From an uncultured Alphaproteobacteria bacterium (GTDB lineage: Bacteria > Pseudomonadota > Alphaproteobacteria > HIMB59 > GCA-002718135): a stretch of 36,168 bases of DNA. Where the stretch lies: NCBI GenBank assembly GCA_902569865.1, contig CACFVT010000011.1, positions 1 through 36,168 on the forward strand, given 5' to 3'. Shown one piece after another: positions 19,640 to 23,602 of this stretch. A program made the position numbers and the translations under genes. Under the pieces are notes generated by a model. That model made no database searches. It was not told the DNA's origin and saw only the letters and a list, made by a program, of their open reading frames with translations. Positions within the stretch are counted from its first letter, which is position 1; each line of letters opens with the position of its first letter.

Positions 19640-22279
19640 TTAAGATGCTTTTTTAATAATTGAATTTAACACGTATTGAAGAATACCACCATGTCTGTAA
19701 TAATCCAGTTCTTTAATTGTATCTATTCTGCAAAGGAGTTTTATAATTCTTTTTTGATCTGATTGAATCTCACAATCAAGTTCTGAGTTTACGCTGATGT
19801 TAGCTAAGCCTTTAATCGAAATTATCTCACTTCCATTAAGTTTTAGTGATTTTTTGTTTTGCTTTGCTGTAAACTCTAAAGGCAAAACACCCATACCAAT
19901 TAAGTTTGACCGATGTATTCTCTCAAAACTTTCGGCAATTACAGCCTTTACACCTAATAATTTAGTCCCTTTAGCAGCCCAGTCTCTGGAAGAACCAGTT
20001 CCATATTCTTTGCCTGCAAAAACAACAAGAGGTACATTGTTCTCTTCATATTTAATTGCAGCATCATAAATTGACATTTTTTCATCTTGATCAAAAAACT
20101 TAGTAACCCCTCCTTCTATTCCAGGAACAATTTCATTTTTAATGCGAATGTTAGCAAAAGTGCCTCTCATCATTATTTCATGATTTCCTCTTCTAGAGCC
20201 ATAAGAATTGAAGTCTTTTCTGCTTATTTGTCTCTCATTTAAATATTTACCTGCAGGACTATCCAATTTTATTGCACCCGCTGGGGAGATGTGATCAGTG
20301 GTAACACTGTCGCCAAGAATAGCAAGAATTCTTGCATTAATTATATCTTCAATCTGATTTTTTTCATCATTAAAAAAGGGTGGGTGTTTTATATAAGTGC
20401 TTGATGCACTCCAAGCATAAGTCTTGTCCGGAATGCTTTCTATTGATTGCCAATTTTGATCACCATTATAAATCTCCTTATATCTTTTTTTAAACATTTC
20501 AGTAGATATTGAATTATCTACTATTTCATTTATTTCAGATGCAGATGGCCATAAGTCCCTAAGAAAGACATCTTTTCCTAACTTACTTATTCCAATAACT
20601 TCATTAAAAATATCAATATTCATATTACCTGCAATAGCAAAAGCTACAACCAAAGGAGGTGAGGCTAAAAAATTTGCTTTTACTTCTTGATGAACTCTGC
20701 CTTCAAAGTTTCTATTGCCTGATAAAACTGAACATACTGTTAAATTGTTATTTTTTATTTCATTAGAAATCCACTCCTCCAGTGGTCCTGAATTACCTAT
20801 GCAGGTAGTGCAGCCATAACCAACCAAATTAAAACCAATTTGGTTAAGATATTTAGACAAATTTGCTTTATCTAAATAATCACTAACTACTTTACTTCCA
20901 GGCGCTAAGCTTGTTTTAACCCACGACTTTGCAGACAAACCTAATTCTACAGCTTTTTTTGCAACTAAGCCCGCAGCAATCATAACATTAGGGTTTGAAG
21001 TGTTTGTACAGCTTGTTATGGCTGCAATCACAACATCACCAGATTGAAGTTTATTATTAGTAATTGATTTGTCATAAGGAGTATTATCAATTGTTTTAAA
21101 TACTTCAGGAACATCTCTAACAAGTATCTTATCTTGTGGTCTTTTTGGACCAGAAACTGATGGCTCTATTTTATTTAAATCTAAACTAATTTTTTCATCA
21201 AAATTAGGATTGTAAGTATCGTTAGTCCACATCTTTTGCATTGATGTATATTTTTTTACAATATTAATTTGATGCTCATTTTTACCAGATAACTTCAAAT
21301 ACTTTATTGTTTCTTTATCTGTAGAAAAAAAACCACATGTCGCACCGTACTCAGGTGCCATATTTGAAATTGTTGACCTGTCTGAAAGAGATAAATTCTT
21401 TAATCCCTCACCATAAAACTCTACAAATTTTCCAACCACCCCATGCTTCCTTAGTATTTCAGTTATAGTTAAAACTAAATCTGTAGCAGTAATCCCTTCT
21501 TGAAGTTTGCCATTTAACTTGCAACCTAAAACTTTTGGAATATTCATAGATATCGGTTGACCTAACATTGCAGCTTCTGCCTCTATCCCGCCAACACCCC
21601 AACCTAAAACTGAAAGTGCGTTAACCATTGTTGTATGACTGTCAGTTCCAACAACTGAGTCTGGATAGAGATAATTATGTTCACCAATATTACTTGACCA
21701 AATAGTAGTTGCAATATTCTCAAGGTTTACTTGATGACATATTCCTCCACCTGGTGGTGCTACATAAAAATTATCAAAAGCGTATTGGCCCCATTTTAAA
21801 AATTCGTACCTTTCTTTATTTCTTTCAAATTCTTTTTTTACATTTTCTTCATAGGCTTTATCATTTCCAAAATGATCAACCATTACAGAGTGATCTATTA
21901 TAAGATCTACTCTTGATAATGGATTAATTTTATTAGGATCGATTCCCTTCTGCTTTAATGCATCCCTCATTGCAGCTAAATCAGCTACTACTGGAACACC
22001 TGTAAAATCCTGCATAAGAACTCGTGTTGGTGAAAATGAAATTTCGAAATTATCCTTAACACTATTTATTTTTATGCATAAATTAGAGATCATCTCTTTA
22101 GTGACTGACACACCATCTTCATTTCTAATTAAGTTTTCCAAAATAACTTTTATTGAATTAGGAATTTTAGATAAATCAAAATTATACAAAGTAGCGATGG
22201 TATTTAAGTCAAAATACTTATAATTTTTATTATCAATAGTTATATCTTTAAATGCATCGAATGAATTGAGAGATTCCAT
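19640..22279 (-). CDS. acnA: Aconitate hydratase A
   Basis: Aconitase converts citrate to isocitrate in the TCA cycle with a 4Fe-4S cluster. The 879-residue length fits AcnA/IRP1-type enzymes. Cluster cysteines are in AITSCTNTSNP and YGCTTCIGNSGPL. GTDSHTTMVNALSVLGWGVG, the swivel-domain AGKEYGTGSSRDWAAKG and SFERIHRSNLIGMGVLP are intact. It is the first gene of the leftward series that includes the helicase, fdxA and carD. Across a 343-bp spacer lies the rightward histone-like/ccm region. The acnA-ccmABC neighbourhood is common in alphaproteobacteria. Confidence 0.98.
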   Translation of the reverse strand: MESLNSFDAFKDITIDNKNYKYFDLNTIATLYNFDLSKIPNSIKVILENLIRNEDGVSVTKEMISNLCIKINSVKDNFEISFSPTRVLMQDFTGVPVVADLAAMRDALKQKGIDPNKINPLSRVDLIIDHSVMVDHFGNDKAYEENVKKEFERNKERYEFLKWGQYAFDNFYVAPPGGGICHQVNLENIATTIWSSNIGEHNYLYPDSVVGTDSHTTMVNALSVLGWGVGGIEAEAAMLGQPISMNIPKVLGCKLNGKLQEGITATDLVLTITEILRKHGVVGKFVEFYGEGLKNLSLSDRSTISNMAPEYGATCGFFSTDKETIKYLKLSGKNEHQINIVKKYTSMQKMWTNDTYNPNFDEKISLDLNKIEPSVSGPKRPQDKILVRDVPEVFKTIDNTPYDKSITNNKLQSGDVVIAAITSCTNTSNPNVMIAAGLVAKKAVELGLSAKSWVKTSLAPGSKVVSDYLDKANLSKYLNQIGFNLVGYGCTTCIGNSGPLEEWISNEIKNNNLTVCSVLSGNRNFEGRVHQEVKANFLASPPLVVAFAIAGNMNIDIFNEVIGISKLGKDVFLRDLWPSASEINEIVDNSISTEMFKKRYKEIYNGDQNWQSIESIPDKTYAWSASSTYIKHPPFFNDEKNQIEDIINARILAILGDSVTTDHISPAGAIKLDSPAGKYLNERQISRKDFNSYGSRRGNHEIMMRGTFANIRIKNEIVPGIEGGVTKFFDQDEKMSIYDAAIKYEENNVPLVVFAGKEYGTGSSRDWAAKGTKLLGVKAVIAESFERIHRSNLIGMGVLPLEFTAKQNKKSLKLNGSEIISIKGLANISVNSELDCEIQSDQKRIIKLLCRIDTIKELDYYRHGGILQYVLNSIIKKAS

Positions 22280-22622
22280 ATTAAATATATAGTTTTTTAA
22301 AAAAATACTTACACATAATTGACAATATTTAAAAAATAAAAAATTATTTAGCTCTGTAATAAGTTTTTACCTAATAATACTAAAAAAAAAATTGTATACC
22401 TGTTTTGTAAATTTTTAATTAGAATTCTGCGAAAAAAACGAATATAAATAAAAAAAATTTATAAAAAAATACTAAAAATTTTTCATCTTTAATAGATTTT
22501 CTTATATTGTTGACTTTGTGCGTAAGTTTTGGGAAAAAAAGAAAGCCTTTTATGTTTGTCACTTATTTTAAGTGATGATGGAGGGGGGTTCCTCCACTTT
22601 AACCCAATACAAGGAGCATTAA
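22280..22622. other. 343-bp AT-rich divergent spacer between acnA and the histone-like gene
   Basis: This is the longest gene-free stretch in the window. Bases 22280-22500 are nearly all A/T homopolymer runs. They include a rightward TTGACA at 22319-22324 with an imperfect -10 (AATTAT, 22342-22347). On the leftward strand GTATACAAT (about 22391-22399) could be a -10 for acnA. A second rightward TTGACT is at 22510-22515, without a good -10. The last 65 bases are GC-richer and hold the structured leader listed separately. I see no tRNA or small ORF. Confidence 0.5.
22560..22616 (+). promoter_or_regulatory. Structured leader with possible H-type pseudoknot ahead of the histone-like gene
   Basis: Three elements are seen. 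Hairpin A is CACTT (22560-22564) with AAGTG (22570-22574). Hairpin B is TGGAGG (22579-22584) with CCTCCA (22591-22596). The loop bases GGGTT of B (22586-22590) are exactly complementary to AACCC at 22601-22605, which gives an H-type pseudoknot with a 1-nt first loop and a 4-nt (CTTT) third loop. A second CACTT (22595-22599) can compete for AAGTG, so A and an extended B are mutually exclusive. The strong Shine-Dalgarno AAGGAG (22611-22616) follows 5 bases later, so folding could control translation. I match it to no named riboswitch class. Confidence 0.55.
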
Positions 22623-22868
22623 ATGGCAAAGAAGAAAAAGAAAGCTGCAGCTAAGAGAAGAAAAGCAGCACCTAAGAGAAAGAAAGCAGCACCTAAGAGA
22701 AAGAAAGCTGCTCCTAAGAAGAAGAAGAGAGCGGCACCTAAGAAGAAGAAAAGAGCTGCTCCTAAGAGAAAAAAAGCAGCACCTAAGAAGAAAAAGAAGG
22801 CAGCTAAGAAGAAGAAAAGAGCTGCTCCTAAGAAAAAGAAAAAGGCTGCAAAGAGAAGAAGAAGATAG
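22623..22868 (+). CDS. Histone H1-tail-like Lys/Ala/Pro/Arg protein
   Basis: This 81-residue protein uses only five amino acids: one Met, 22 Ala, 7 Pro, 39 Lys and 12 Arg by my count. It is built from seven- or eight-residue units of the type AAPKRKK or RAAPKKKK and ends in KRRRR. There is no hydrophobic core or acidic residue, so it should be disordered and bind nucleic acid, like the C-terminal domain of histone H1 and bacterial Hc1/AlgP-type proteins. Expression signals are strong: AAGGAG six bases before the ATG, a structured leader and a perfect terminator behind. Nucleoid compaction or RNA binding are the likely roles (inference). Repetition is at protein level with varied codons, which argues that it is a selected coding sequence. 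Confidence 0.85.
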   Translation: MAKKKKKAAAKRRKAAPKRKKAAPKRKKAAPKKKKRAAPKKKKRAAPKRKKAAPKKKKKAAKKKKRAAPKKKKKAAKRRRR

Positions 22869-22934
22869 GCTATTTTCTAGAGTTAGAAAAAAAAATATAT
22901 TTTTTTTCTTTTTCTTAATTTTTCTAAAAATTAC

Positions 22935-22960
22935 AAAAAACGGGGGTAACCCCGTTTTTT
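22935..22960 (+). terminator. Rho-independent terminator after the histone-like gene
   Basis: The stem CGGGG (22941-22945) pairs with CCCCG (22950-22954) around the loop GTAA. It is flanked by six A upstream and six T downstream, which extend the helix and supply the U-tract. The symmetry would let it work in both directions. It separates the histone-like gene from ccmA. Confidence 0.92.
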
Positions 22961-22996
22961 ATTGTGTAATGAATAAAATACTTTTAATCAGTCGAT

Positions 22997-23602
22997 ATGC
23001 TTCTCATTAACAATTTGTCTTTTTCAAGAAATGATAACATAATATTCCAGAATTTAAATTTATCATTAAGTAATCGAAGCATAGCACAAATTAGAGGTAA
23101 AAATGGTTCAGGTAAAACAACTTTCCTTAACGTAATTTTAAATTTTTTAGAATCCAAAACAGGAGAAATATTTTGGGAAGGTAAAAATATAAAAAAAAAT
23201 ATTTTCAATTTTTACAATAAAACAACATTTATAATGGATCATAATACTTGTACAAGAAAGATGACTGTCCTGGATAATATAAATTTTTGGAGTAGATTAT
23301 CTTCTTCAAAATTAACTAAAGATGAAATTGTATTATTATTGGAGACTTTTAATATACAAAAATATCAAAATACTAAAACAATGTATTTATCTTCTGGGGA
23401 AATAAGAAAACTAGAATTACTTAGACTGATTCTAGAGCAGAAAAAATTATGGATTCTAGATGAACCATATAATCACCTAGACGATTTATCTATAGAAATA
23501 CTGAATCAAACTTTTATTGATCATATAAACAAAGATGGGGTTATTTTATTTACATCGCATTTAAAGCCAAGTATCAATAATTTAGAGGTTGTAGACTTAT
23601 AA
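22997..23602 (+). CDS. ccmA: Heme exporter ATP-binding protein CcmA
   Basis: CcmA is the ATPase of the CcmABCD complex, which releases holo-CcmE for cytochrome c maturation. The 201 residues show Walker A GKNGSGKT (34-41), signature LSSGEIRKLELLRL (in place of LSxGQ) and Walker B LWILDEPYNHLD. The size is typical. It is the first gene of an eight-gene operon with ccmB starting after one base. It lies 36 bases after the terminator of the histone-like gene, so a promoter should lie in that short gap or transcription reads through. Confidence 0.94.
   Translation: MLLINNLSFSRNDNIIFQNLNLSLSNRSIAQIRGKNGSGKTTFLNVILNFLESKTGEIFWEGKNIKKNIFNFYNKTTFIMDHNTCTRKMTVLDNINFWSRLSSSKLTKDEIVLLLETFNIQKYQNTKTMYLSSGEIRKLELLRLILEQKKLWILDEPYNHLDDLSIEILNQTFIDHINKDGVILFTSHLKPSINNLEVVDL

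Follow-up and report, generated by a model that had tools for sequence, protein, structure and literature searches.

Does the A/T-rich spacer in front of a small gene for a basic protein hold a regulatory RNA, and if so, what might that RNA do? The gene lies in a window of 36,168 nucleotides (the whole stretch of DNA that we analyzed), which is contig CACFVT010000011.1 from an uncultured alphaproteobacterium of the HIMB59 lineage. We located a structured leader at 22544-22627 on the + strand, directly before the gene and flanked by divergent acnA (19640-22279, - strand) and by ccmA (22997-23602, + strand). The encoded protein of 81 amino acids consists exclusively of M, A, K, R, and P, in agreement with a first-pass annotation that had described a basic product built from five amino acids, and family searches with it returned no matches in Pfam or NCBIfam. 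The features of the locus are as follows.

22509-22535, + strand: block GTTGACTTT...CGTAAGTTTTGGGAA, conserved in 64 aligned leaders, the DNA upstream of it much less so
22544-22557, + strand: 5' strand of closing helix P0, AGCCUUUUAUGUUU, predicted to pair with the start-codon region
22558-22576, + strand: hairpin P1, GTCACTTA...TAAGTGAT, pairing kept through sequence change
22579-22596, + strand: hairpin P2, TGGAGG...CCTCCA, loop ending in GGTT, nearly invariant
22586-22605, + strand: proposed pseudoknot GGGTT/AACCC, not a conserved 5-bp helix
22611-22627, + strand: AAGGAG Shine-Dalgarno, spacer, and AUGGC start, forming the 3' strand of P0, paired with 22545-22557 in the minimum free energy (MFE) fold computed from 22544
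22623-22868, + strand: basic histone-H1-like protein, Lys/Ala/Pro/Arg-repeat, 81 amino acids, from the list of open reading frames
22940-22960, + strand: terminator-like hairpin ACGGGGGTAACCCCGTTTTTT, 3' of the basic-protein gene, read directly from the sequence
22560-22564 and 22595-22599, + strand: the two CACTT copies of the first-pass annotation; its AAGTG at 22570-22574
22579-22584 and 22591-22596, + strand: its TGGAGG and CCTCCA, with GGGTT at 22586-22590
22601-22605 and 22611-22616, + strand: its AACCC and AAGGAG

All of these earlier elements lie exactly where they had been placed, with AAGGAG starting five bases after AACCC. The impression of a GC-rich block in an A/T spacer was also borne out by base composition (51% G+C at 22576-22610 versus 22% over 22280-22622).

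To characterize the distribution of the leader, we combined several searches. The leader DNA recovered 25 loci of the same genus, including the window's own (22 over most of the query, three partial). A pattern scan of named genomes, in which GGTTCCTCC and TAAC are fixed, returned 71 stretches, 70 of them in alphaproteobacterial records; the remaining match, in a Lachnospiraceae record, had an unrelated context and was taken as chance. In 67 of the 70 a protein beginning MAKK lies directly downstream, while two others were truncated by contig ends and one was misread by our script. Since the pattern misses the leaders read in other genera, we take the 70 loci to belong to the window's genus. 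Of 162 genomes of the order, 78 had a covariance-model match, all in six genera of one family, and all but one of them at a single place. In the exception, two contigs bear leaders that differ slightly in sequence, which may reflect an assembly duplicate or two strains. The same Lys/Ala/Pro/Arg-repeat gene follows at all nine other-genus loci examined, so that the leader holds a constant position before one class of gene at these nine loci and at 67 of the 70 pattern loci.

Half of the genomes of the order that are at least 90% complete (10 of 20) match the covariance model, and we infer that the ten without a match are the ten genomes of that quality in a sister family, f2. A class-wide search of 385 genomes with the model R2 gave five matches and no convincing member outside the family. 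Two of the five were the window's genome and genus, and we attribute the other three (L152, L153, and L154; E 0.001 to 0.03) to chance. The helices are missing from L153; in L152 and L154 most of the modelled pairs are retained, and one and two pairs, respectively, are mismatched. None of the three has a basic repeat protein downstream; by eye, their contexts are a hydrolase-like frame, an IF-1-like frame, and the inside of a transporter-like frame. An exact pattern search of viral contigs returned no matches. In f2, 17 of 24 genomes match a pattern drawn from that family's own leader. The 17 leaders, all of which were examined, precede the same kind of basic protein and share GTTGAC, and they carry two other hairpins, GAATAT...ATATTC and TATACTTACTAGTAAGTGTA (in most), just 5' of AAGTAAGGAGG; AA(G/A)TAAGGAGG is also present. 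This different two-hairpin design implies that the present fold is not required for such a gene in general. Because the f2 leader is structured too, the need for a structured leader at the basic-protein gene may be older than the present fold.

We propose that the leader acts in cis, as a structured RNA, to control how the histone-like protein is translated, a reading that we consider probable from the comparison of sequences and that is suited by the leader's position adjoining the ribosome-binding site. The comparison itself demonstrates RNA-level conservation of P1, near-fixation of P2, pairing of P0 in leaders of the window's type, and a link to one gene. Of the earlier proposal of a cis-regulatory RNA, the conserved, structured + strand leader therefore stands, with its pairing-compatible changes in P1 and its retained P2, but the pseudoknot and the mutually exclusive folds do not. 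For the cell, we infer occlusion of the ribosome-binding site, a switch, and an effector, for which the basic product is perhaps the first candidate, through autoregulation. Under this model, the 5' end of the leader (AGCC...) would pair with the start-codon region as P0, enclosing P1 and P2. The default fold would hold the Shine-Dalgarno and/or start codon in the P0 stem (window-type leaders) or in the loop of a separate hairpin (majority-type leaders, those of a sister lineage), and it would have to open for translation. The fixed sequence of P2 (GGAGG, GGUU loop, CCUCC, and downstream AAC) would be the likely recognition site, perhaps bound by the highly basic product in negative autoregulation, as in ribosomal-protein leaders. 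The most specific form of this reading is tentative: a bacterial histone-H1-like protein would regulate translation of its own mRNA through a cis-regulatory RNA of a new family, with the recognition hairpin fixed across the bacterial family and the ribosome-binding-site helix swapped between sister lineages.

It is conceivable, though rather unlikely in our judgment, that the leader is a general-purpose 5' untranslated region whose hairpins protect the mRNA or order the leader for high constitutive expression with no regulator. The different hairpins at the same place in f2, the drift of sequence and arm spacing in P1, and a gene equipped with a good Shine-Dalgarno and a terminator-like hairpin are all consistent with this alternative. 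However, P2, GGTT, AA(C/T), and AGCC are near-fixed across six genera, which is beyond what a generic protective hairpin would need.

Support for the leader acting as RNA comes from P1, whose sequence drifts and whose core arms lie 3 to 9 nt apart across leaders. Its four core positions hold 264 of 264 standard pairs in 66 distinct leaders. When changes were mapped on an AcnA tree (68 of 105 loci, after duplicates were removed), the three variable inner pairs were seen to change 15 times, and every change retained pairing, 12 of them into G.U, three into G-C, and none into A.C. The closing pair changed ten times, with four changes that retained pairing and six that broke it. The arms were located by folding each hairpin, a procedure that favours pairing, and mismatches at the counted positions were nevertheless detectable, as at the closing pair. 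If G.U and A.C were equally likely, 12 of 12 outcomes as G.U would have a probability of ~0.0002. This asymmetry points to P1 being read as + strand RNA, since a DNA operator would not predict it. Base pairing kept through sequence change was thus found for P1; P2 and P0 are mostly invariant.

The same result bears on the possibility that the conserved block is a DNA operator or promoter, in which TTGGGA-N16-TATGTT (TTGGGA-N17-TATAAT in majority-type leaders, by eye) would start transcription inside P1 and P1 would be the operator palindrome. TTTTATAAT does lie just 5' of P1 in 62 of 119 grouped loci, several of which come from one genome, and other TAT... forms occupy this place in most of the others. 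Despite this, the G.U-only changes on the AcnA tree led us to reject P1 as an operator, and the variable distance between its core arms also speaks against one, making the alternative as a whole improbable.

Farther upstream, TTGACT (22510-22515) is likely a -35 element; GTTGAC precedes the same gene in 17 of 17 f2 leaders. With 17-bp spacing, TTGACT would place the start near 22545, so the transcript may begin near AGCC, although the corresponding -10 (GAAAAA in the window) is poor. The stretch GTTGACTTTNNNCGTAAGTTTTGGGAA (22509-22535) is conserved beyond the requirement of a -35 element; an activator site, or some of the transcript, may lie within it.

A feature that the first-pass annotation missed is the closing helix, in which AGCC at 22544 is predicted to pair with the GGC of the start-codon region (AUGGC). 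AGCCTTT at 22544 is present in all 69 pattern-set leaders that reach that far, a set chosen without AGCCTTT, and at nine other-genus loci, and AAGGAG is invariant in an alignment of 34 leaders chosen for diversity from the six genera. In window-type leaders, P0 extends to 12 bp and covers the start codon as well as part of the Shine-Dalgarno. Across 20 distinct leaders of this type, 99.2% of cells in the 12 pairs are paired, with one leader type that has a longer spacer left out of the P0 counts. At pair 8-80, U-A is replaced by A-U in two genera, with both sides changed, and at position 9 a change of A to G gives G.U in one leader. A shuffled 3' strand paired equally well in 104 of 5,000 trials. 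Majority-type leaders have P0 cut to AGCC:GGCU plus scattered pairs, with no sign of compensation; their 3' strands make 11.0 of 14 pairs with window-type 5' strands versus 9.9 with their own. These leaders carry a 7-bp hairpin, AAAAUAC/GUAUUUU, with AAGGA in its loop. All seven pairs are present in 43 of 44 majority-type leaders and six in the other, compared to at most four of seven in window-type leaders.

Folds were computed at 37°C. When 64 distinct leaders (collected by a script that required AGCCTTT and ATGGC) were cut at AUGGCN, MFE structures contained GCC:GGC in 64 and P2 in 63; inner P0 formed in 19 of 20 window-type leaders, and 43 of 44 majority-type leaders formed the hairpin whose loop contains the Shine-Dalgarno. 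Exchanging 5' strands between types (15 donor strands per type) made the folds less stable by a mean of 1 to 1.7 kcal/mol, a small effect. Folds depended on the chosen ends: P0 is absent from the window's MFE structure computed from 22500, and with 30 coding bases added, AGCC pairs elsewhere in both majority-type leaders printed. The model thus needs a transcript start near 22544. We also considered an exchange in which CCUCC, released by the opening of P2, would block the Shine-Dalgarno. In folds that included 30 coding bases, the mean unpaired fraction of the Shine-Dalgarno was 0.54 before and 0.63 after the GGAGG strand of P2 was blocked, so that the exchange is unsupported on average, although some other-genus leaders show it. 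As the window-type P0 stem and the majority-type hairpin each place it in predicted structure, the ribosome-binding site appears to be held in structure in the designs of both lineages.

A helix over the Shine-Dalgarno raises the prospect of an RNA thermometer, in which P0 would melt on warming. RNA thermometers of the fourU and ROSE classes pair a U-rich strand over the Shine-Dalgarno. The leader resembles them in having such a strand, and the window-type pairing AUGUUU/GAGCAU, which lies over part of the Shine-Dalgarno, includes U.G pairs. Unlike those classes, the leader has an extra conserved hairpin and no Rfam match, and its P0 is lost in the sister lineage and replaced by another helix. 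Given that a thermometer would also leave the conservation of P2 unexplained, we regard this possibility, modelled on predicted pairing, as quite improbable.

P2 is nearly invariant in sequence. The stem TGGAGG/CCTCCA had been proposed with six pairs, and five of them are upheld: all 67 genus leaders pair GGAGG with CCTCC, two of them through a change of A-U to G.U, and 98.8% of cells are paired in the 34 leaders from six genera. The sixth pair varies among the 67 (T.G in 45, T-A in 15, and a mismatch in seven). These 67 are drawn from 71 sequences (the window's own and the 70 pattern matches), four being cut by contig ends, and were gathered with a pattern fixing GGTTCCTCC, which makes the invariance of P2 in this set partly a matter of choice. 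The same holds for the distinct-leader sets, because the scripts require AGCCTTT, GGTTCCTCC, and ACAAGGAG, and all but the P1 core count also an ATGG(C) start. As a pattern-free control, we used loci found by BLAST or covariance model, and 55 of 55 have the element and GGTTCCTCC. All 55 match R2, a model built from many of the leaders, and several overlap named loci; the script pattern is complete in 50, and contig ends truncate the other five, which retain GGTTCCTCC. From the aligned sequences, P2 shows strong constraint, not covariation.

Constraint of this kind could instead arise from coding, if translation from an upstream ATG at P2 gave a leader peptide or lengthened the protein at its N terminus (MEGGSS...). 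In 37 of 44 distinct majority-type leaders, a frame opened by such an ATG continues through P2 and into the gene, and the window has a 14-codon frame, ATGGAGGGG... (22578-22622), whose TAA stands directly before the gene's ATG (by eye). But read-through occurs in only two of 20 window-type leaders, and in other genera, by eye, the frame stops early or is shifted, or the ATG is missing. On these grounds we rejected coding constraint, which is very improbable; the third positions of GGT TCC TCC are, moreover, invariant in 55 of 55 pattern-free loci.

The first-pass annotation had centered on an H-type pseudoknot between GGGTT and AACCC, which is present in the window but not conserved. Among the 67 genus leaders, the helix is complete in 15, faces AACGC (four of five pairs) in one, and is reduced to GTT/AAC in 51 without compensation, which is the kind of loss that the annotation itself had named as counting against the pairing. 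All 44 distinct majority-type leaders have the 3-bp GTT/AAC and none the 5-bp helix. The longest Watson-Crick match in the 20 distinct window-type leaders is 5 bp in ten, 4 bp in six (including one in a different register), 3 bp in three, and 2 bp in one, which G.U could extend. Furthermore, when the 20 bases downstream were shuffled, a 5-bp complement to the loop arose by chance in 677 of 20,000 trials (3.4%), so that the pseudoknot by itself is weakly significant. We therefore rejected the 5-bp pseudoknot as a conserved core; judged by these leaders, it is lineage-specific. A short GUU/AAC contact may be real, its core being intact in 33 of the 34 leaders from six genera, with one G.U in the last, and too invariant for a covariation test. 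Likewise, the competing CACTT/AAGTG folds are possible in the window, but the second CACTT is absent from 57 of 64 distinct leaders (present in seven of 20 window-type and none of 44 majority-type), and the switch was rejected for this lack of conservation. Among homologous leaders, compensatory changes appear in P1 and one P0 pair is changed on both sides, with P2 nearly invariant and the pseudoknot losing pairs uncompensated. As for a metabolite riboswitch built on such a pseudoknot, the least probable reading, the P2 loop and the downstream AAC can form a second helix of 3 to 5 bp in most leaders, with the GUU/AAC core kept as above, yet this helix shrinks without compensation, no Rfam riboswitch matches, the sole linked gene seen encodes the histone-like protein, and nothing else that we found points to a riboswitch.

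Statistical support for the fold as a whole was modest. Of 200 dinucleotide shuffles, 194 folded less well than the 85-nt leader (22544-22628; z = -2.1); for the longer segment 22500-22640 the signal was weaker (z = -1.6), with 12 of 200 shuffles equalling or surpassing it. Across 11 leaders tested, z-scores ranged from -1.95 to -3.74. General covariation statistics are weak. For the genus alignment, 91 of 500 shuffles reached the observed score (structure including the pseudoknot), which is not exceptional. A model slid by +3 columns scored 0.060 versus 0.068 for the true one in the genus alignment, 0.063 versus 0.094 in the six-genus alignment, and 0.061 versus 0.069 in the alignment of 21 window-type leaders. 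Cells changed on both sides numbered six in the slid model versus three in the true one for the genus, eight versus three for the six genera, and two versus three, on two pairs versus one, for the window type. There is too little variation in P2 and at most P0 pairs for these to tell much about pairing. Our case accordingly relies on comparative sequence evidence of three kinds: the G.U-compatible or compensatory changes in P1, the near-fixation of P2 and AGCC between diverged flanking proteins, and the conserved position. Divergence is far greater in these flanking proteins than in the leader: relative to the window, majority-type and other-genus loci mostly share ~57 to 71% identity in the N-terminal part of AcnA and mostly ~37 to 53% in CcmA.

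The leader is a real, conserved, and previously unrecorded RNA element that most likely serves translational control. The earlier statement that it fits no known class was corroborated: an Rfam search at gathering scores of the window and six loci gave no match for the leader, and none of the 25 matches listed in a permissive search (E ≤ 10) of 22400-23000 falls in it. Models for SAM-II, SAM-V, preQ1, and other H-type pseudoknot riboswitches in Rfam had no match in the leader either. We found no description of the element in the accessible portions of the literature on structured RNAs in Pelagibacter or with histone genes, nor in that on SAR11 histone-like proteins, as represented mostly by titles and the openings of abstracts.

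Among known systems, the rpsB and rpsL motifs are described as ribosomal-protein leaders in "Candidatus Pelagibacter" (PMC2704228). They share with our element a structured 5' untranslated region before the gene of a basic, nucleic-acid-binding protein in marine Alphaproteobacteria, whereas the leader here has another gene, another fold, no Rfam match, and an autoregulation that is putative. H-type pseudoknot riboswitches of the SAM-II and SAM-V classes (PMC2704228, PMC6061858) also occur in marine Alphaproteobacteria, and the leader resembles them in its small hairpin, the loop of which could pair with downstream bases close to a Shine-Dalgarno. The leader differs from them in having no Rfam match, no conserved pseudoknot, and no methionine gene.

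If our reading is correct, streamlined ocean bacteria with small genomes and little noncoding DNA would harbor an unrecorded RNA element, which would offer a testable case of dosage setting for a histone-like protein. It would also be an example of a regulatory fold that keeps its effect while its base-pairing partners change.

Histone H1-like proteins of the AlgP type contain low-complexity Lys/Ala/Pro repeats. The protein encoded here has such repeats as well and is much shorter, with no family match. Its length ranges from ~40 to more than 80 amino acids across relatives, a spread expected from repeat expansion and loss. At one locus, acnA is in the opposite orientation, ~2 to 3.7 kb upstream of the leader, unlike the gene order at other loci.
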